Shown one piece after another: positions 3,504-20,409 of a DNA stretch of 23,124 nt (positions within the stretch are counted from its first letter, which is position 1; each line of letters starts with the position of its first letter). The stretch is from a virus. The notes under the pieces were generated by a model, which was given only the letters and a program-made list of their open reading frames with translations, searched no databases and had not been told where the DNA came from. Location: the IMG/VR virus record IMGVR_UViG_3300044797_000116, positions 1 to 23,124 of that record; one strand, given 5' to 3'. A program made the position numbers and the translations under genes.

Positions 3504-5354
3504 ATGTCCGTGTCCAAGCTTATTGCCGGCCAGCATTCATGTGTGGGCCATCTCTCCCAAGGCGACTCGACTCCAGCGGAACATCAGGCGGCCCTCGATA
3601 AGAAGGCGATGATCGTTTACTGCGGCAAGTTCCAGTCCATGGACGGGGAGGTCGAGATCACCGAGGCGCACTGCGACCAGCTCATCGCCAACCATAACGC
3701 TAAGCTCGAGGCTTTCGAGCGATCCGGACAGCGCGACACCGAATTCTTCTCGAAGATGCCGCCCCTGCAGCTGGACCACAGCACCTCGGCGAGGGATACT
3801 GTCGGGCGTGTCGCGGGCAAGCTGAGCAAGGGGACCTTTAAGAATCAGGACGGACTTCCCGTGACCTGCGTGAACGCGGACCGAATCGTCGTTCTCGGCA
3901 AGGGCAACGTGGAGCACGTGGTGGACGGCCGCTGGGCCAACGTGAGCATCGGCGCGGACCTCGAGGCAGGCGTTCTGAACGAGCTCTCGATCACTCCATT
4001 CCCAGCCGCCCCCAATGCCGCACTCCTGTCGAGGAAGCGGATGAACGACTGGAAGACTCACTCCAAGGGGTCCTATAAGGGCTATCCCTACCAGATCGAG
4101 ACCGACGACAACCAGTTTTTCGGCTACGTCGACAACATCGACTTCCAGGGTGTTGACGCCAAGGCCGTTCTGGAGCAGATTAAGAAGTACATTGACTCCA
4201 AGCCGGCCAATCTTGCCGGACCTCCAGGAGAAAAGACGGTCGAGCTTCCGGGAAAAGTGGATGAGGCGAAATGGAGCGAGGCTAAGAAAGCCGCCAAGAA
4301 ATCCTATCCAGATAAGCCAGAGGACGAGAGCTTCTGGAAGATAGTCACGACGATTTACAAAAACGAGGGTGGTGAGTTCCACTCCGAAGGAGATAAGATG
4401 GCTGAGACCAAAGACGAACTGAAGGCCCGACACATGAAAGAGAAGGAGTCTCTCGCTGCCGCCCACACCGACGAGCTGAAGAGCCACAAGCTCGAAGAAG
4501 TGAAGGGTAGGCACGAGGAGCAGATGAAGGCCCTCTCTGAGAAGCACGACGCTGAAATGAAGAAACTCGGCGTCGAAGAAGTCAAGAAGGATGAAGCTGG
4601 GGATCCAGGAGAAGTTAAAAAGCATACCGACGTCGGCGACGAACCAGAGCTTAAGGCTAAGATGGCCGCGATGCGCCCCAAGCTGGTGACTCTGGCGAAA
4701 TCCATCAGGTCCGGCGTCAGCTCCGGCCGTCTCGCTGCCCGCGAGCAGATGATCACGGCCAAGGTCGCGCGACTCCGAGCCGGGGCGAAGATGACCCCCG
4801 CCGAGCAGAAGAAGATCGACCTCGCCGCGCTTTCGAAGTCCAGCGACTCCGAGCTCGAGGCGTTTTTCAAGGGTTACGAGATCCGCGAGGACGTGATCGA
4901 CTCACGATTCCACGGCACCACGAAGGCCCTGAGCCTGGCCAATCTTCAGAAGTTCAGCGCGGACACCCGCCTGAAGGTTCTCGAGGCCGAGGCCCGCATG
5001 TCCGGCATCGGAGCCCCCATGACCGATGACCAGCGCAAGGACATGGCGGCGGCCGAGTCCCTCCCGATGTCCGACCCGCAGAAGGCTGCCGGCGCCGAGG
5101 GCGGATGGGAGCACATGATGAAGCACCTGGCCGGCTTGCTCGGTGAGCACCAGTTCAAGGACGCCGTCCTGGAGCACGTGAAGAAGATGATGGACATGAA
5201 GCACTTGGGAGAGATGGCCCCCGAGCATGCCGAAAACACCGAAAAACAAATGTCTGCTCTTGTAAAAGAGTACAACAAACTGCAAACTGAAGTCCAAGAC
5301 CTCACCGCAATGGTCGGCGAAGCCTTCGGTATTCAGAAAACCGAACTCGAGTAA
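3504..5354 (+). CDS. Mu gpI-like prohead protease fused to scaffold
   Basis: This 616-residue polyprotein joins a capsid maturation protease to an internal scaffold. Residues 35-180 are the protease domain, with likely catalytic H92 in LQLDHSTSARDTVGRV and S148 in WANVSIGADLE. The family-typical strand NELSITPFPAAPNAALLSR (159-177) follows. Residues 185-290 hold an extra module, including a YKGYPYQ segment and the helical WSEAKKAAKKSYPD...FWKIVTTIYKN block seen in phage structural proteins. Residues 299-616 are highly charged and predicted coiled coil (repeated KEKE, HEEQMKALSEKH), then helical with many Met and His, as expected for a scaffold that is degraded on maturation. The gene sits between MuF and the decoration protein, the usual place. 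A strong internal ribosome site precedes Met299 (see the nested gene). The start at 3504 has only CAGGG close by; an in-frame ATG at residue 36 also begins near the protease core. Confidence 0.85.
   Translation: MSVSKLIAGQHSCVGHLSQGDSTPAEHQAALDKKAMIVYCGKFQSMDGEVEITEAHCDQLIANHNAKLEAFERSGQRDTEFFSKMPPLQLDHSTSARDTVGRVAGKLSKGTFKNQDGLPVTCVNADRIVVLGKGNVEHVVDGRWANVSIGADLEAGVLNELSITPFPAAPNAALLSRKRMNDWKTHSKGSYKGYPYQIETDDNQFFGYVDNIDFQGVDAKAVLEQIKKYIDSKPANLAGPPGEKTVELPGKVDEAKWSEAKKAAKKSYPDKPEDESFWKIVTTIYKNEGGEFHSEGDKMAETKDELKARHMKEKESLAAAHTDELKSHKLEEVKGRHEEQMKALSEKHDAEMKKLGVEEVKKDEAGDPGEVKKHTDVGDEPELKAKMAAMRPKLVTLAKSIRSGVSSGRLAAREQMITAKVARLRAGAKMTPAEQKKIDLAALSKSSDSELEAFFKGYEIREDVIDSRFHGTTKALSLANLQKFSADTRLKVLEAEARMSGIGAPMTDDQRKDMAAAESLPMSDPQKAAGAEGGWEHMMKHLAGLLGEHQFKDAVLEHVKKMMDMKHLGEMAPEHAENTEKQMSALVKEYNKLQTEVQDLTAMVGEAFGIQKTELE
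4387..4392 (+). promoter_or_regulatory. Internal ribosome binding site for nested scaffold
   Basis: AAGGAG lies five bases before the in-frame ATG at 4398, inside the protease/scaffold gene. It is a better Shine-Dalgarno than the one at the gene's own start. It falls exactly at the boundary between the protease-plus-linker region and the coiled-coil scaffold region, which makes it unlikely to be a random occurrence. Confidence 0.6.
4398..5354 (+). CDS. Nested scaffold protein from internal start (same frame)
   Basis: Translation beginning at ATG 4398 would give a 318-residue protein identical to the C-terminal half of the protease/scaffold. It would be pure scaffold: charged coiled coil from about residues 1-60, then helical segments rich in Lys, Glu, Met and His. 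The perfect AAGGAG five bases upstream supports use of this start. Phage lambda (C and Nu3) and Mu (I and Z) make a separate scaffold in the same way, from an internal in-frame start in the protease gene. The full-length protein would be incorporated in small amounts and the short one in large amounts, guiding capsid protein assembly. Expression from this start is inferred. Confidence 0.55.
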   Translation: MAETKDELKARHMKEKESLAAAHTDELKSHKLEEVKGRHEEQMKALSEKHDAEMKKLGVEEVKKDEAGDPGEVKKHTDVGDEPELKAKMAAMRPKLVTLAKSIRSGVSSGRLAAREQMITAKVARLRAGAKMTPAEQKKIDLAALSKSSDSELEAFFKGYEIREDVIDSRFHGTTKALSLANLQKFSADTRLKVLEAEARMSGIGAPMTDDQRKDMAAAESLPMSDPQKAAGAEGGWEHMMKHLAGLLGEHQFKDAVLEHVKKMMDMKHLGEMAPEHAENTEKQMSALVKEYNKLQTEVQDLTAMVGEAFGIQKTELE

Positions 5355-5801: not shown

Positions 5802-6977
5802 ATGGCCTTATATACAACTCCTGGTAATGAGTTTTTCACTGACGAGTACACTGCGGTGCTCCAGAAACTGGTGTTCGAAGTCGTCAACGACCCGAGCACC
5901 TACGAGGGCAGCCGCATCCTTCCGGCGGTGGCTATCCCCGTTAAGAAGATCCGAACCGAAGTCATCGAGGCGACGGGCGGTCTGACCAACGAGCACGTCC
6001 GCGGGACCGATGTCCAGTACATCCAGTCCTTCGGCAGCCGCGTCCAGGAGTACATCGCTCCTGAGTACAAGGAAGCGATCCACTACGACGAAGACAAGAT
6101 TCTGAACTTCCGAGAGCTCGGGCAGAACGACCCTTCGAAGCGCGGCGTTCGCCAGCTCATCAACGAGGACATCAAGCGGCTCAACCGCCGGCTCGAGGCC
6201 CGAATTGAGAAGCTCCGATGGGATAACATCTTCCTGGGTGGATTCGTCTACCAGGGCAAGACGTTCTCCTTCGGGATCCCCGCCTTCAACCAGGCGACCC
6301 CGATCACGGGTCTCTGGTCGACGGACGGAATCAGCGCGAACAACTCCGCCAACCCTTTGATCGACATCCGGTACTGGCTCGAGGGCGGCCTCAGCAAGTT
6401 CCGTAAGTACTCGATCATCCGCATGATCATGAACCCCAACACCGCTCGCTGGATCCTGGACAACGCGAACACGCGCTCGTTCCTGACCAGCTTCGGCGCC
6501 AACCCGCTCCTGGGTGAGTACACGGTTCAGAAGGTGCTCGGTCTCCTGATCCCGGGTGCTCCCGAGGTCCGGATCTACAAGGGCTGGTATCAGACTGAGG
6601 CCATCGGCACGGGGACCACGTCCTCGGGCGGGTCTCCCGCTCCCGGACAGATCACGGTTTCCGACGGCATCTACTTCATCCCAGACGGCGCCATCTTCTT
6701 TGAAGCCGCGCTGCCTGGCGGGGATAAGATCGGCGAGTTCGTGGAGGGTATCCACCTCGCCACGGGCACGGTCGACAGCCCTGGCTACGGTAAGTTCATC
6801 GTTCCCGAGGAGTGCATCGCTCCCGGCACGAAGGGCGGACCCGGAAACCCCTATATCGACATCGTGGCCGGCCTGCGCGGCGGCGTGAAGCTCGATCGCG
6901 CATTCGACGTCCTGACGGCCTCGGTCGTGGCATCTCTGCCAGTCCTGGCTAACCTGACGTCCGGCAACAGTCTCTAA
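5802..6977 (+). CDS. Major capsid protein (lambda gpE family)
   Basis: This 391-residue protein fits the E-type major capsid family with the HK97 fold. Visible family traits include the N-terminal DEYTAVLQKLVFEVVNDP and SRILPAVAIP region, the long helical stretch NRRLEARIEKLRWDNIFLGG, the YSIIRMIMNPNTARWILDN strand-helix, and the late GGVKLDRAFDVLTASVVASLP end. Length is near lambda E and other family members. Four hundred or more copies would form the shell. AGGGGG precedes the ATG by a few bases, and an intrinsic terminator follows the gene, consistent with it being the strongly expressed end of a head transcript. No Cys-rich or odd segments are seen, except a Ser/Gly/Pro loop at about 270-283 that may be surface exposed. 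Confidence 0.9.
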   Translation: MALYTTPGNEFFTDEYTAVLQKLVFEVVNDPSTYEGSRILPAVAIPVKKIRTEVIEATGGLTNEHVRGTDVQYIQSFGSRVQEYIAPEYKEAIHYDEDKILNFRELGQNDPSKRGVRQLINEDIKRLNRRLEARIEKLRWDNIFLGGFVYQGKTFSFGIPAFNQATPITGLWSTDGISANNSANPLIDIRYWLEGGLSKFRKYSIIRMIMNPNTARWILDNANTRSFLTSFGANPLLGEYTVQKVLGLLIPGAPEVRIYKGWYQTEAIGTGTTSSGGSPAPGQITVSDGIYFIPDGAIFFEAALPGGDKIGEFVEGIHLATGTVDSPGYGKFIVPEECIAPGTKGGPGNPYIDIVAGLRGGVKLDRAFDVLTASVVASLPVLANLTSGNSL

Positions 6978-9342: not shown

Positions 9343-10548
9343 ATGGGCTTAACTACGATTCCAATTCAGAAGACACCCGGAAATCCTACGCAGATCACCT
9401 ACGCCCCCAACACGGGCATCCCGGGGACGATCCCGCCTCTCGTGGTCATCGGCCACCAGGGCGCGACGGGGGGAATGCTGGCCGGGTCCGCATCCGGGGC
9501 CAACTACGTCCCCGTTCCGATCGTCAACATCGCCTCTCTGCCGGCCGCTTCTGGTGAGGTTCAGGGCTACTTCGGGAACGGGTCCGAGCTCGCCAAGATG
9601 GTCATCGCCGCGATCGCCGCGAACACCGGGACCGGAAACTACGTCAACATCATCGCCATCCCGCTCGCGTCCACGGACACGGCGTGGGGGTCGTCCGGTG
9701 AGGCCCTCACGGCGCTCGACAAGCTCGGATGCGAGTACGTGGCCTCCTGCTACGACGCGCAGACGTCCATGTCGAACAACACGGCGCTCATCAACGAGGT
9801 GTCCACGATGAGCCAGGCGAACCGCACGACCAACGGTCAGTTCGGGTCCATCGCCGTCGCGGTCAACCAGAGCGTGACTCTGCCTTCGACCCTGAATCCT
9901 TACAACTCTGCCTACCTCTCCCCTCAGTGGTTCAGGAACAGCGCCCCGACGCAGCTCGTGGGCGAGATCGCGGCTGCTGTGGCCGCTCAATTGAATGGGC
10001 TGCAGACTCCCTTCAACCCGGTGAACGGCCTCGTGCTGCCCTACACCAATGGCCCCGCCATGCCGAGCGACGCAATCAGCATCGGATTCGGTCTCGAGTC
10101 CGAGACCGCTCTGAAACTGGGATGGGCGCCCCTCAAGGTGCTCAAGAACGGTCAAGTCGCTCAGGTGCGGTCCGTGACCAGCCTCATCCTCGAGTCGGAT
10201 GACGTCACCCCCGTGGTGGATTACTTCGACTGCCAGGACCTGATGGTGCTCTACTTCTGGAGGCAGACGCTCGCGGCCCGGTACGCTCAGCCGGACTTCG
10301 CCCAGGCCAAGGCGTCCGGCACCGAGGCGGCCCTCCTCCTGTCCGAGGTGGTTCGACTGGCCGGCGTCTTCCAGGATAACGGGATGTTCCAGGGCGTGGA
10401 TAACTCGGCGAGGAACTTCGTCGTGCAGAGGAACCAGTCTGACCGCACCCGGTTCGACGTATTGACCCCCGTGGACGTGGTCCCGATCCTGGCCGTAATC
10501 GCAACGAACGTTCAAGCCGGCACTTTCGCCGACGCATTGACTTTGTAA
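9343..10548 (+). CDS. Contractile tail sheath protein (Mu gpL-like)
   Basis: This 401-residue protein is the tail sheath, the outer contractile cylinder. The start MGLTTIPIQKTPG is followed by a classic arrangement: an early beta region (TIPPLVVIGHQG), the alpha/beta core with YVNIIAIPLAST, and the conserved C-terminal part where YFDCQDLMVLYFWRQTLAARY and FVVQRNQSDRTRFDVLTPVDVVPILAVIATN make the core wall of the sheath. Length (401) is at the short end for Mu-like sheaths. GGGGGA precedes the ATG. The next gene is the tube, the normal order. The tail therefore is contractile, so the phage has a myovirus morphology. Confidence 0.88.
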   Translation: MGLTTIPIQKTPGNPTQITYAPNTGIPGTIPPLVVIGHQGATGGMLAGSASGANYVPVPIVNIASLPAASGEVQGYFGNGSELAKMVIAAIAANTGTGNYVNIIAIPLASTDTAWGSSGEALTALDKLGCEYVASCYDAQTSMSNNTALINEVSTMSQANRTTNGQFGSIAVAVNQSVTLPSTLNPYNSAYLSPQWFRNSAPTQLVGEIAAAVAAQLNGLQTPFNPVNGLVLPYTNGPAMPSDAISIGFGLESETALKLGWAPLKVLKNGQVAQVRSVTSLILESDDVTPVVDYFDCQDLMVLYFWRQTLAARYAQPDFAQAKASGTEAALLLSEVVRLAGVFQDNGMFQGVDNSARNFVVQRNQSDRTRFDVLTPVDVVPILAVIATNVQAGTFADALTL

Positions 10549-10560
10549 GGAGACTGACGA

Positions 10561-10992
10561 ATGGCAACCCTATACGCAGACCGAGCCTTTCTCTCCGTCA
10601 ACGGAGCTAAGATCGTCGACCTGCAGTCGATGAACCTGAATAACAACTACAACGCGAAGGCCGTCCCGAACATGACGACCGACGGCTACAACACCGGATT
10701 CGTCCAGGGGAACCACGACATCGACATCGACTTCGAGGTCGCGATCGAGAACGCGCTGGCCTCCCCGAAGATCGAGGAGATCGACTTCGGAGCCAACAGC
10801 GTCCAGCTGAACGTCATGGTCGGGGCCGACCAGTACGTCGCCCAGGGCCTTTTCCGGAAGACGTCGAAGACCTCGGCCGCCGGCATCGGGCAGGAGGCGA
10901 AGAAGAGCTGGACCTTCGGGGCGCTCAGGCTCACGGACGTGGTCGGTAACTCGATCCTATTCCCCCTGACCCTGTCGCTCCAGTCGAGCTAG
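10561..10992 (+). CDS. Tail tube protein (Mu gpM-like)
   Basis: This 143-residue protein lies directly after the sheath and matches the Mu-type tail tube. It has NGAKIVDLQSMNLNNNY near the start, GYNTGFVQGNHDIDIDFEVAIE in the middle, VQLNVMVGADQYVAQGLFRK, and a final beta segment LFPLTLSLQSS. The strand-rich pattern with 'GxxQGNxDI' is typical of tubes that stack as hexamers inside the sheath. A strong AAGGAG lies ahead of the ATG at 10561, fitting a protein needed in many copies. The next gene begins three bases after its stop. Confidence 0.82.
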   Translation: MATLYADRAFLSVNGAKIVDLQSMNLNNNYNAKAVPNMTTDGYNTGFVQGNHDIDIDFEVAIENALASPKIEEIDFGANSVQLNVMVGADQYVAQGLFRKTSKTSAAGIGQEAKKSWTFGALRLTDVVGNSILFPLTLSLQSS

Positions 10993-10995
10993 CCG

Positions 10996-11520
10996 ATGTC
11001 CACCCCGACAGCGCCAGCTAACGAATACCCCAACAGGGACCTCATCCGACATGGGATCAACTTCAGGTTCGACATCAAGCTGAGAAAGCTGTCGCTGAAC
11101 GTGCGGCCGCTCTCGACGATGGAGGAGGACAGCATCTCCCAGTCGGTGCTCGACGACCTGGAGAAGCTCCCCGAGCATAAGCGCACGTCGCTGAAGCAGT
11201 CGGCGCTCCTCAGCATTAAGAAGCTCGAGATGGCCCAGACCTCGGACATCAACATGAAGGACTCGAAGATGACTGCGGTCGAGCTCCAGACGCTCACGCC
11301 GGGCGAGCTGCAGTTCCTTTTCAAGGAGTACATCGCCGGCTGCGACAAGGTGAACCCCAAGATCGAGAGCTTCTCCCAGGAGGAGCTCGCAAAGTGGGTG
11401 GACCATCTAAAAAAAAATTCCAGCGAGGCGGAGACGACGCTGATCGAATCGTCTTTCTACACACTGGTCGGACTCTGTCTCCACTTACTGACGCAGCCAG
11501 AGTCACCCGAGGCCAGTTGA
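10996..11520 (+). CDS. Tail assembly chaperone, 0-frame product
   Basis: This 174-residue protein sits between tube and tape measure, where nearly all long-tailed phages place the tail assembly chaperone. It is helical and charged, with GINFRFDIKLRKLSLNVRPLS at residues 20-40, EEDSISQSVLDDLEKLPEHKR, and TPGELQFLFKEYIAGCDKVN. An A9 run (11409-11417) falls in codons 138-141 (Leu-Lys-Lys-Asn). Codon bias after the run remains high in GC at the third position in frame 0, so the 35 remaining residues (SSEAETTLIESSFYTLVGLC and beyond) look genuinely coding. A -1 shift at the run gives a longer product (separate entry). It would coat the tape measure during tail assembly. Confidence 0.7.
   Translation: MSTPTAPANEYPNRDLIRHGINFRFDIKLRKLSLNVRPLSTMEEDSISQSVLDDLEKLPEHKRTSLKQSALLSIKKLEMAQTSDINMKDSKMTAVELQTLTPGELQFLFKEYIAGCDKVNPKIESFSQEELAKWVDHLKKNSSEAETTLIESSFYTLVGLCLHLLTQPESPEAS
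11409..11417 (+). promoter_or_regulatory. A9 slippery run, candidate -1 frameshift site in tail chaperone
   Basis: Nine consecutive A bases lie in the gene's own frame as CTA AAA AAA AAT. This holds A-AAA-AAA, a recognised slippery heptamer. After a -1 slip following AAA AAA, the frame stays open for 51 codons, to TAA at 11568-11570. After a +1 or -2 slip, the frame stops after a few codons (TGA at about 11441). Only the -1 frame is open, as in programmed frameshifting of phage tail chaperones. Confidence 0.55.
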
Positions 11521-11570
11521 CCTGGATCGCGGTCCATTCTATGGTTTCAGGAGAGAGAAATATTCTTTAA
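11415..11570 (+). CDS. Frame -1 extension of tail chaperone
   Basis: Read in the -1 frame from the A9 run, this stretch encodes 51 residues, KFQRGGDDADRIVFLH and on through TWIAVHSMVSGERNIL. The combined product would be about 191 residues. The extension fills the otherwise empty gap 11521-11570, and its TAA overlaps the AAGGAG ribosome site of the tape measure at 11580. The tail-chaperone G/GT pair in lambda-type and Mu-type phages follows the same layout. Support for the extension is weaker than for frame 0 because no known T-domain motif is seen, and codon third-position bias within 11521-11567 is mixed. A missing or extra A in the assembled run would give the same picture, so read support is decisive. 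Confidence 0.45.
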   Translation, partial: KFQRGGDDADRIVFLHTGRTLSPLTDAARVTRGQLTWIAVHSMVSGERNIL

Positions 11571-11579
11571 GGAGATCGG

Positions 11580-13280
11580 ATGTCCGGCGTAGAAGTTGAA
11601 GTCCAATCACAGCTCGCCAAGATCGTCCAGGACCTCGAGAACATCAAGAAGGCCTCCGAGGACGTCTCCAATACACTTAAGGGTACAGGCGAGAACGTCG
11701 GAAAGGCCGTGGATAACCAGACCAAGAAGGTTCAGAACTCCCTGGAGCAACTGAAGAACTTCGGCCGTCGGGTTGCCGACCAGCTCAAGCAGGACTTCAT
11801 GGCGATGGGGTCCGTCGCCTCACTGGGCGCCGGGATGAAGCTCTCGTCCCAGTTCAGCGGGTCCGTGAAGGAGGCCGTAAACCTGTCGGATACGGTCAGG
11901 AAGCTGGGGTCTGTCTTCGGCATTGCCCGGTCGGAATTCGCGGGCTTTCAGTCGATGCTATCCAAGGGTTTCGGCGACATCGGCGCATCCTCCACGGCCG
12001 CCGCAAACGCCATTACTGGGCTTTCCCAGACCGGGGTGCGGGGTCAGGGCAATCTCGTGGCTTACGCCAAGACGGCGGCCCAGCTGGCCTCTATTGGCGG
12101 GCAGCAGGGGCAGGAGGGCGACATCGCCAAGGGGATGACCGGCGTCATCTCGGCCAGGGGCGGAAACGTCAACGACATGAAGAGCCAGGAGGCGGTGAGT
12201 CGAGAGATCCTCCAGATCCGCAACGCCACGGGCGCCTCCATCACGGACATCACGAAGTCGTTGACCGGGATGTATGGGGGGTCGAACCAGAGCTTCCAGA
12301 AACGGCTCGCAGGAGGCGGATCCACCACTCTGGCGACCGCCGCCATGATGGCCCCAGGATCGACCGCTTTCATCGAAAATTACCTCAAGCAGGGTAAATA
12401 TGAGAGCGCCGGGACCCAGGCCAGGGGCATGGGCAACATCCTCGGTAAGAACGGGGAGATCGACAACAAGCAGATTCAGGCGATCATGGGCCAGGCGAAG
12501 AGCGCCGGCGGCGGGGACGTGCAGCAGGGCCTCAAGAGCGCCTTCGGGATGTCCACCGAGGAGGCCCAGGGGTTCATCCGCCTCTCCGAGGTGATGAACA
12601 AGTCCGGGGACGCCATCAACGGCGCACACAAGTCCATGACCAACATCAACAAGGAGTTTCAGGAGACCCGGAGCCTCGGCGACTCCTTCAGGGCTAACGT
12701 CAACAAGGTCAAGGGGCTCATGGCCCCAGGCATCGGCGGGCTCACCCAAGGTGCCACTGACCTGCTGGGCAAGGCCAGCCAGACCACGGGCGGTGCTGTC
12801 GCCACGACAGCGGGAGCGGGACTTCTCGCCGCAGTTCTCACGGGCGGGGGACTCAGGGGAATCGGCGGACTGCTCGGCGGCGAAGCCAAGTCCAGGGCGA
12901 TCGAGGCCGCCACGGGAGAGAAGGTTCAGAAGGTCGAGGTCATCAACTTCCCCGGCGGATTCGGATCGGTCCCGAGCGCGGCCAGCGGGATCGGCGGATT
13001 CCTCGGCAAGGCTGGGCTCGTGGGCGCAGCCGGGGCAGCGGGCTACGGGGTCGGGACCGTTGCGAACATGGGCTTGGATAAGTTCACGCAGGGCAAGACC
13101 TCCGAGGGCTTCCAGGGCAACGCCATGGAGAGGCTGTTCTTCAAGCTCGACCAGCTCATCGGTGGCGAGTCAGCCAAGGCTATCAACGCCGGTAACCGCG
13201 TGGGCGTCGACGTGCACATCAAAGAGAAGCCGAAGACCTTCCAGACGACGGCCAGGCCGAGCAGGGGAACCAGTCAATGA
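11580..13280 (+). CDS. Tail tape measure protein
   Basis: This 566-residue protein follows the chaperone and sets tail length. The N-terminus is a helical coiled coil (IVQDLENIKKASEDVSNTLK), followed by a large Gly/Ala/Ser/Gln-rich helical region, with repeated GxxG segments such as ALTGLSQTGVRG-like turns. A hydrophobic part at about 405-440 (GGAVATTAGAGLLAAVLTGG) and another near 475-500 (GLVGAAGAAGYGVGTV) could insert into the host inner membrane during genome entry. By the usual 0.15 nm per residue it predicts a tail of about 85 nm, short for a myovirus. AAGGAG lies five to six bases before the ATG, overlapping the frameshift stop. The 3' end overlaps the next gene by four bases (ATGA). 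Confidence 0.85.
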   Translation: MSGVEVEVQSQLAKIVQDLENIKKASEDVSNTLKGTGENVGKAVDNQTKKVQNSLEQLKNFGRRVADQLKQDFMAMGSVASLGAGMKLSSQFSGSVKEAVNLSDTVRKLGSVFGIARSEFAGFQSMLSKGFGDIGASSTAAANAITGLSQTGVRGQGNLVAYAKTAAQLASIGGQQGQEGDIAKGMTGVISARGGNVNDMKSQEAVSREILQIRNATGASITDITKSLTGMYGGSNQSFQKRLAGGGSTTLATAAMMAPGSTAFIENYLKQGKYESAGTQARGMGNILGKNGEIDNKQIQAIMGQAKSAGGGDVQQGLKSAFGMSTEEAQGFIRLSEVMNKSGDAINGAHKSMTNINKEFQETRSLGDSFRANVNKVKGLMAPGIGGLTQGATDLLGKASQTTGGAVATTAGAGLLAAVLTGGGLRGIGGLLGGEAKSRAIEAATGEKVQKVEVINFPGGFGSVPSAASGIGGFLGKAGLVGAAGAAGYGVGTVANMGLDKFTQGKTSEGFQGNAMERLFFKLDQLIGGESAKAINAGNRVGVDVHIKEKPKTFQTTARPSRGTSQ

Positions 13281-18077: not shown

Positions 18078-18896
18078 ATGCCTCTATTCCTAGGAGCACA
18101 GGACCTCTACCGCATTCTCCAGAGGGAGCTGCCTCCCGACGACGTCTATCCAGACTCGGGGTCCCCGTCCGCTTTTTTCGCCACCTCCGATAACTTCGCC
18201 ATAGCGAAAGTCCTGAGCGACTACTACACCGGCCCGCAGCAGCAGACGTATAACAACGAGTTCGCCATCACCGCCACGGGCGCGAACGGTCGCCTCTCCG
18301 ATCACGAGATCATGTGGCTGGGCGCCCCACTGGATCAGACCCAGTACACCGTGGCCGAGCGCCTGGCCCTGGTGCTGGCGCAGATCCGTTTTCAGCCGGC
18401 GCCGACCCTCTGGAACATCCTCACGCTTGCCCTGACATTCGTGCCCCCTGGAGTCAGGGTGGGCATCGTCCCGTACTACTCGGCCATGCCCTTCGTCTAT
18501 AACGTCCGGATCTACGAGTACACGATGACCCCGCAGGCCCTCATTGCCCTGACGATCGCTCTCACGGCCGCTGGACCCGCCCGGTCGCCCTTTGTCATCA
18601 GCCAGAACGTGAACCTGGCGACCTACAACCTCAACTGGTATCTGCCGAACGCCAGCCAAGCGTCCCTGGTCCAGAACGCCTACGTTGACCCCTCCGGGTC
18701 GCCGATCACCGGCTATACCGGAGTGGTGGACTTCAACACCAATGAGTCATTTGAAATCACCGACCAGCAAGGTAATATCTTGACAGACCAGATGGGTAAC
18801 GCAATTGTGACTCAGTCCGGGCCTGAGACGATCATAACTCAGGGCGGAGATAACATAGACACCCAAGGGGGAGACGACATTGTCACTAATCAATAG
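18078..18896 (+). CDS. Baseplate/tail protein, Mu gp48-like (DUF2313), with repetitive C-terminus
   Basis: This 272-residue protein follows gp47-like as in Mu gp48. The N-terminal half includes LYRILQRELPPDDVYPDSG, a family-like opening, and WLGAPLDQTQYTVAERLALVLAQIRFQPAPTLWNIL. The middle (YTMTPQALIALTIALTAAGPAR) is helical. It probably joins the baseplate to the fibre. The last 50 residues are a low-complexity tail: TDQQGNILTDQMGNAI, then TQGGDNIDTQGGDDI, near repeats of 9 to 10 residues, typical of beta-structured tails in phage virion proteins. Those repeats contain the ribosome site and TTG start of the fibre gene, which overlaps by 17 bases. Confidence 0.75.
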   Translation: MPLFLGAQDLYRILQRELPPDDVYPDSGSPSAFFATSDNFAIAKVLSDYYTGPQQQTYNNEFAITATGANGRLSDHEIMWLGAPLDQTQYTVAERLALVLAQIRFQPAPTLWNILTLALTFVPPGVRVGIVPYYSAMPFVYNVRIYEYTMTPQALIALTIALTAAGPARSPFVISQNVNLATYNLNWYLPNASQASLVQNAYVDPSGSPITGYTGVVDFNTNESFEITDQQGNILTDQMGNAIVTQSGPETIITQGGDNIDTQGGDDIVTNQ

Positions 18897-20409
18897 ACTC
18901 ACACTGCTGCTTTTACTTTTCACCGGTGCCGCCAACGCGGGCACCGTGGAGATCACGGCGCTGCCGCTGGGCAGTGCGGCTACGACGACGAACGCCGATG
19001 TGTTCCCCTTTGTCGATGTCACGGCCAACGCCACTCAGAAGATGACCCTGTGGGACCTGATCAATCTCCCTCCGATAGTCGCGACCTACGCGCCCATTAA
19101 TAACCCGACCTTCACCGGCACCACGGCCGGGTTAAATGGAAGTGGCGCGAACCTCACTGAGCTGAACGGTTCGAACGTTGGGTCTGGCATTGTTTCCCAG
19201 CTATTTGGCGGCACTGGCGTAGCTAGTACCTCCCTTCACACTCACGGGGTGCCCCTTGCGGAGGGGTCATCGCCTTATTCATCGGCAGCGGCCGGCGCGA
19301 CGGGCACGGCTCTGTGTGGAAACGGCGTCAGCGCTGACCCCAGCTTCTGCAGTGTCGTTTTGAATCCCATGACCGGAAACGGGGACATGATTTACGGCGC
19401 GGCCAGCGGGACGGCGTCGCGACTGCCGGCCCCGACCCCCTCGTCTTATGCTGATATTTTGACGTACCCCAGCCCAGGACCCACTCCCTCTCCCGTTTGG
19501 AACATACTCCCGGGCAACACAGCCGTCCTTGCTGTTCCAGCGATGGGCAACCTCCTCACGACCGGATCGACCTCCGGTTATCTATTCGTGGTGAGCCCTG
19601 CGAATGCCACAGTCGGCGCTACCTATACGAATAATTCGGCCACTTTTACAGTTTTGACGACGATCTCGTCCGGGTCCTTTCTTTTCACCTCGATCACCAG
19701 CGGATCGCCGCTATCCAGCGGAACCCTCACAAAGACCGGCGGAACCGGTGACACCTCGATCACCTTCAGCTCAGAGCAAGTTCTGGCGACCTTCGCAGCA
19801 CCCGCGGGGCCCAACCCTCTCATGCTTCATGTTAAGTTCGTCGCAGCCGGCGGCGGGGGCAGCGAAGGGGGCGCGACCCTGACGACCAGTGCCAACCCGG
19901 GAGGCGTTTCTGGACTTTCATGCGGGGTCAACTCCTTCGTCGGCACCGGCGGTGGCGCTGGGACCCAGAATGGCGGCGGCGCTGGCGGCGGCCTGGAGCC
20001 CTCGGTCCTTCCTGCGGGGGTCTTCGGCGAGTGCACCTCCGGAAGCGGGGGCGGGGCCCCTGGCTTCACCCAGGGAGTAGACGCGAGTGCAGTCGGCGGC
20101 GGCGTCGGGGCATCCTCGATCTATGGCGGCGGGGGACAGTCTTACGATAACAACACGACCGGTGGAAGTGCGGCCACCAACTCCGGATCCGGCGGCGGCG
20201 GCGGCGGTAATAACGGTTCTGCCAGCTCCTCATCGGGCGGCGGCGGCGGTTCGGGCGCACACTGCGATTTGTATATCCCCACTGGGACGACCGCGTTTTC
20301 TAAGACCTGCTACTATACAATCGGCCTCGGGGGCGTCGGAGGTACGGGATCCGCCAACGGCGGTCCTGGGGCCGACGGTCGCGTGGACTACTGGTGGAGC
20401 TACCAATGA
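18880..20409 (+). CDS. Glycine-rich tail fibre with N-terminal signal peptide
   Basis: This 509-residue protein starts with TTG at 18880, well supported by AGGGGGAG six bases upstream. Residues 1-20 (MSLINRLTLLLLLFTGAANA) form an unusually clear Sec signal peptide with an ANA|GT cleavage site. Next come VEITALPLGSAATTT and DVFPFVDVTANATQKMTLWDL, the usual start of phage tail-fibre proteins. A low-charge Ser/Thr/Pro/Gly shaft follows to about residue 300. The C-terminal 200 residues are Gly-rich (GGGG runs, a SGGGGG run near 430-455, and paired Cys), ending with TYYTIGLGGVGGTG-like strands and DYWWSYQ. Such Gly-rich domains are receptor-binding tips in several phages. A fibre normally folds in the cytoplasm, so the signal is odd. 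A GTG at about 18942 would give a form without it. It ends in an ATGA overlap with a lipoprotein gene. Confidence 0.78.
   Translation: MSLINRLTLLLLLFTGAANAGTVEITALPLGSAATTTNADVFPFVDVTANATQKMTLWDLINLPPIVATYAPINNPTFTGTTAGLNGSGANLTELNGSNVGSGIVSQLFGGTGVASTSLHTHGVPLAEGSSPYSSAAAGATGTALCGNGVSADPSFCSVVLNPMTGNGDMIYGAASGTASRLPAPTPSSYADILTYPSPGPTPSPVWNILPGNTAVLAVPAMGNLLTTGSTSGYLFVVSPANATVGATYTNNSATFTVLTTISSGSFLFTSITSGSPLSSGTLTKTGGTGDTSITFSSEQVLATFAAPAGPNPLMLHVKFVAAGGGGSEGGATLTTSANPGGVSGLSCGVNSFVGTGGGAGTQNGGGAGGGLEPSVLPAGVFGECTSGSGGGAPGFTQGVDASAVGGGVGASSIYGGGGQSYDNNTTGGSAATNSGSGGGGGGNNGSASSSSGGGGGSGAHCDLYIPTGTTAFSKTCYYTIGLGGVGGTGSANGGPGADGRVDYWWSYQ

Follow-up and report, generated by a model that had tools for sequence, protein, structure and literature searches.

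Does the gene between the tail tube and tape measure genes of this virus encode one tail assembly chaperone or two, and, if there are two, is it the ribosome or the RNA polymerase that slips at the run of A near the gene's end? We addressed this question in the window, that is, the whole stretch of 23,124 nucleotides, which is a complete IMG/VR contig with a contractile-tail module. The initial annotation had seen here a slippery run in a tail chaperone gene, and had read it as a frameshift that makes two chaperone forms with distinct tails.

In terms of gene order, the capsid gene is found at 5802-6977 (phrog_29) and the tail sheath, indicative of a contractile tail, at 9343-10548 on the + strand (phrog_165 tail sheath, E=1e-24). 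The tail tube gene (10561-10992, +) is assigned by position, with no family match, and shares 48-59% identity with its positional counterparts in relatives. The putative chaperone gene (10996-11520, +) comes after it. The tape measure protein, of 566 amino acids (11580-13280, +), has a weak match to the phrog_28 tape measure family (E=0.02) and homologues that come after the chaperone gene in relatives. Downstream are a DNA-circularisation/hub gene, a Mu gp44/P-like gene and a gp45-like gene, followed by the baseplate J proteins. The order sheath, tube, chaperone and tape measure is common to the window and its relatives.

Some other features of the contig were recorded. The only tRNA in the window, a tRNA-Met (CAT) at 2422-2503, lies between the exonuclease-like and head morphogenesis genes, and just past it, at 2509, there is a run of eight A. 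Between the head morphogenesis and capsid genes, a 616-aa protein (3504-5354) has no PHROGs match and a 547-aa counterpart in the relative L002; by its position, it could be a protease-scaffold fusion. Two further ORFs are also without a PHROGs match: a Gly/Ser-rich putative tail fibre of 509 aa with a TTG start (18880-20409), and an open-ended ORF at the contig end (22486-23124) that looks by eye like a class I methyltransferase (FIIANHVFEHCRSPLETL...).

The chaperone ORF encodes 174 amino acids in frame 0, the lambda gpG-like short form. The A run occupies 11409-11417 (+) within the codons CTA AAA AAA AAT (11407-11418), exactly where it had been reported. It is precisely nine long and holds A_AAA_AAA in the correct phase. 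Past the two lysines, frame 0 continues for 34 more residues, giving this form a tail of its own. The -1 frame is open for 53 codons from 11409 (50 beyond the run), ends in QLTWIAVHSMVSGERNIL and stops at TAA 11568-11570; this extension (11409-11570, +) would be the lambda T-like part of a long form. The stop has two bases in common with AAGGAG at 11569-11574 (+), read in the sequence as the tape-measure Shine-Dalgarno, and the tape-measure ATG follows at 11580. As for the +1/-2 frame, it closes early, as noted before, with a stop after 8 codons. The initial annotation had counted 51 codons in the -1 frame and 35 residues in the frame-0 continuation, and all its details hold to within one or two codons.

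Relatives of this gene are distant. A direct search with the 174-aa protein returned none in viral contigs and none in INPHARED, and relatives were reached via profiles of the capsid, tube and sheath. A search with the window's sheath led to one AT-richer contig, with 45% sheath identity, whose chaperone gene is about 30% identical; there too A9 occurs in the same phase, and the open -1 frame includes LTHGQVTWYFVLSMAAGK, where the window has VTRGQLTWIAVHSMVSGE. Altogether, the chaperone gene is present in 33 distinct IMG/VR relatives and in one contig from a metagenome-assembled genome (MAG). The main set consists of 34 contigs, with the window included and duplicates removed; the near-copies L052, L054, L068 and L086 were excluded. 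The MAG contig L109, with A8 and the -1 tail RLTPGQITWLLVHRLASGD, is the 35th sequence. Across relatives, the frame-0 protein is 20-51% identical to that of the window, and the G+C content of the contigs ranges from 38 to 66%.

Among isolate phages the group has no recognisable relatives of the window's capsid, chaperone or -1 tail (tblastn against the 50,697 records of INPHARED). The only isolate match to the window's sheath was Haemophilus phage SuMu, at 28%, and the sheath of one relative had no match among isolate phages. The Bacteroidales-named MAG G001 includes contigs (L058, L109, L111) with the capsid and chaperone gene of this phage family, a possible host hint or a possible binning artefact.

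An unbroken run of eight or nine A is found at the same site in all 35 sequences, with A9 in 27 and A8 in 8 (27 and 7 in the main set of 34). Deeper clades (L024-L032, L057, L066, L083-L086) carry the same run. A run of seven was never seen among the 35 loci, and A_AAA_AAG is used in none of them. By comparison, other long ORFs of the 34 loci hold 10 runs of at least eight A in a total of 102,405 codons (nine A8 and one A9). The commonest phase is that of 30 loci, and all 30 have a codon ending in A ahead of AAA AAA (4.8 expected from codon usage) and use AAA for both lysines (7.1 expected); since the loci are related these trials are not independent, even though protein divergence is large. 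Nearly every locus has a further A directly after the two AAA codons, whereas elsewhere the figure is 30%.

Phase is conserved as well, with A_AAA_AAA in frame at 34 of the 35 loci; the exception is L007, which reads GCT AAA AAA AAC. Relatives with A8 arose by substitution (AAA AAA AGC/AGT/ACT, or GCT AAA AAA AAC) and not by an indel, so the relation between the frames is unchanged. In 7 of the 8 loci with A8, it was the 3' A that was lost, with an amino-acid change, and the 5' A is kept. The length of the run is maintained even in loci with a changed codon phase (L007, L008, L057 and L085).

The -1 frame beyond the run is open for 47-87 codons in all 34 contigs, and is also open in the MAG contig. 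Redrawing the codons of an unchanged frame-0 protein would leave the -1 frame open as far as the frame-0 stop in about 7 of the 34 loci, whereas all 34 have it open. The -1 tail has the motif T-x-G-Q-x-x-W, with G and Q in 34 of 34 and T and W in 33 of 34. In 24 loci its W is located beyond the frame-0 stop, as are the next conserved columns (A/V, S, G) in all loci. A variation was found in L057 and L083-L085, where GQ-R-x-W is retained and M replaces the usual H. Modelled alone, the -1 tail forms two helices with moderate confidence. The frame-0 tail is likewise conserved, as ELSxxxLxxxxxxLL. The comparison with related phages that had been suggested earlier therefore finds both the run and a conserved -1 extension in every relative; a true run length of 8 or 10, or relatives with neither feature, had been named as evidence against the frameshift, and none of these was encountered.

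Across the family, frame 0 continues for 25-40 codons after the run, and about 30 codons are read in two frames. In the window this dual-coding overlap spans 11418-11520 (+), and comprises the C-terminal helix tail of frame 0 together with part of the -1 extension, both conserved. At sites where pairs of relatives have the same frame-0 amino acid, codons in the overlap are 50% identical where the upstream part of the same genes predicts 30%; the overlap is thus under more constraint than frame 0 imposes. For serine, codon identity in the overlap is 72%, with 19% expected. By the motif counts and this synonymous constraint, the -1 extension is under purifying selection.

Several readings in which no recoding takes place can be weighed against these data. 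If the -1 ORF were a small gene of its own, with a start within the chaperone gene such as the GTG found in the -1 frame at 11394, the run would be incidental; this is very unlikely, as it leaves A8-A9 runs at 35 of 35 junctions unexplained, and in the window no Shine-Dalgarno-like site for an internal start is present within 24 bases upstream of the run. Still less probable is that the run is a replication-slippage switch (phase variation) or an assembly error and that the true gene has a single frame. Homopolymers are unstable in principle, but no relative has a run length that would fuse both frames, the A8 runs come from substitution and not from indels, and both tails are conserved. Internal start, phase variation and sequencing error were accordingly rejected. 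A functionless coincidence of an A run with an open frame has the least to recommend it and is barely credible. Taken on its own, the window has a probability of 0.44 of an open -1 frame by chance, which makes it weak evidence by itself, but the family is strong evidence: run rarity, codon constraint, motif and -1 openness all rule chance out, and the comparative data refute it. A -2 shift was also considered and rejected. In the window this +1/-2 frame meets a stop within 8 codons, and most loci close it within 1-24, with two exceptions at 40 and 48.

Concerning the identity of the gene, we found no significant sequence match to any known chaperone family. Single-member matches below threshold were obtained to XkdN-like phrog_389 (E=0.002), phrog_1442 TAC (E=0.025) and Phage_TAC_5 (E=0.029). 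The AlphaFold model of the frame-0 protein has a mean pLDDT of 89. In a Foldseek search against viral models, about ten of the best 50 matches are named tail assembly chaperone; they come from unrelated phages, with TM 0.2-0.4, and none reaches E<=0.001. Sequence and fold searches of the PDB gave no credible match, and Rfam gave none. The assignment to the chaperones is thus based mainly on architecture, since the sequence matches are sub-threshold and no fold match has E<=0.001. The name of tail chaperone in the initial annotation agrees with the gene order, the architecture and the weak fold resemblance, with no significant similarity to a known chaperone family behind it. The gene between tube and tape measure very probably makes two versions of the chaperone, as phage lambda does. 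We take it for a G/GT-like tail-assembly chaperone pair produced through -1 recoding, whose kind is known but whose family is new.

From the run, the frames, their conservation and the gene order, which are read directly from the DNA, we infer that the two products probably result from ribosomal slippage at the A run, with the -1 form in the minority. Most ribosomes would stay in frame 0 and produce the 174-aa form, and a minority would shift to -1 at the run and produce a longer form, of about 191 aa, with the T-x-G-Q-x-x-W segment at its end. About 140 residues would be common to the two chaperones, which would have different ends. The shift is most likely a tandem tRNA-Lys slippage on A_AAA_AAA, to which the extra A's may add slipperiness. 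If lambda gpG/gpGT is a guide, the tape measure protein would be coated by the common part, and recruitment of tube subunits would fall to the -1 part; both forms would depart before the tail is completed.

The main alternative is programmed transcriptional realignment, in which the polymerase slips on A8-A9 so that some mRNAs gain one A, and normal translation then yields the long -1 form, with the same end products. We regard it as possible though doubtful, and hold only tentatively that polymerase slippage takes part, alone or additionally. The -1 recoding announced by the initial annotation is strongly supported by 34 relatives; that it is ribosomal had been assumed, and polymerase slippage fits about equally in some respects. 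The one feature that all 35 loci retain, those with a changed phase included, is a run of 8 or more A. Baranov et al. used a conserved 9A with some 8A homologues as a criterion of transcriptional slippage in IS elements (PMC1088944), and Antonov et al. stated a homopolymer of eight or more as the criterion for programmed realignment (PMC3711429). The 27 A9 and 8 A8 loci of this family correspond to such a homopolymer, of length conserved in homologues. Ribosomes in a purified system slid little on A9-A10 (PMC4363877).

As for stimulators of the dnaX/IS type, there is neither a consistent Shine-Dalgarno-like site upstream of the run nor a conserved hairpin or stem-loop; the mean fold z downstream of the run is -0.57, with no peak around it. 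For tssM, a lack of stimulators was used as an argument for transcriptional slippage (PMC4256274). Three more points count against the ribosome. A heptamer of seven bases is sufficient for it, yet A7 never occurs and nearly every locus has an A after the two lysine codons; A_AAA_AAG, a better ribosomal site in E. coli (PMC5009743), is never used; and L007 has no A_AAA_AAA in phase. On the other side, the phase maintained at 34 of 35 loci points to the ribosome, and polymerase slippage demands neither this phase nor the retention of the silent 5' A in 7 of 8 A8 loci. Loss of the 5' A (e.g. CTA to CTG) would be silent and follow codon usage, codons ending in A being rare for the residue before AAA AAA, yet it is the 3' A that is lost, which favours the ribosome. 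By a rough hand calculation that takes the seven A8 loci of the main set as independent, keeping the 5' A in 6 of 7 without a phase constraint has a p of around 1e-4, an estimate weakened by an order of magnitude or so by the fewer independent A8 events that the tree suggests. Furthermore, frameshifting in the tail chaperone has been characterised as ribosomal and as conserved across many long-tailed dsDNA phages (PMC5009743), and the open-access literature that we searched describes no phage tail chaperone with transcriptional slippage. We put ribosomal slippage ahead because the phase is kept and because the phage tail chaperones studied so far use it.

Compared with known systems, the family has in common with lambda gpG/gpGT a location flanked by the tube and tape-measure genes, a -1 shift late in the first ORF, an extension in an overlapping frame and two products with a common N-terminal part. 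It differs in its homopolymeric A8-A9 site, in a sequence without significant similarity to any known chaperone family, and in a frame 0 that runs 25-40 codons past the run, which gives both forms long distinct tails. With phage Mu it shares Mu-like baseplate genes (gp44/P-like, gp45 and DNA-circularisation N-like) and a chaperone gene at the same place, but the Mu tail chaperone uses a -2 shift (PMC5009743, PMC2628397) and here the conserved frame is -1. The cases of transcriptional slippage on A8-A9 (Thermus dnaX, IS elements, Yersinia tssM3) likewise have a length-conserved A8/A9, no obvious stimulator and a fused product from the second frame. Unlike in these, an in-phase A_AAA_AAA is also conserved here.

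Three aspects are new. The relatives are uncultivated contractile-tailed phages that, going by the INPHARED search, had not been described as a group; their slippage site is a homopolymer of conserved length; and the dual-coding overlap of 25-40 codons goes with two conserved tails. The tail-chaperone recoding system thus gains a widespread and unclassified family, in which a slippage site of 8-9 A is kept despite contigs of 38-66% GC and chaperones only about 20-50% identical to that of the window. For annotation, we offer the rule of an A8-A9 run plus a T-x-G-Q-x-x-W tail in -1. As the frame-locked heptamer and the length-locked homopolymer are both conserved, these phages are well suited to asking whether slippage by the ribosome and slippage by the polymerase are combined, and whether a chaperone ratio can be set at the RNA level. 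It is conceivable, if on balance not the expected outcome, that the whole phage family sets the ratio of its two chaperones by polymerase slippage on A8-A9, alone or with the ribosome, as a transcription-level counterpart of the lambda G/GT switch. If transcriptional slippage is true, it would be a new variant of tail-chaperone recoding.
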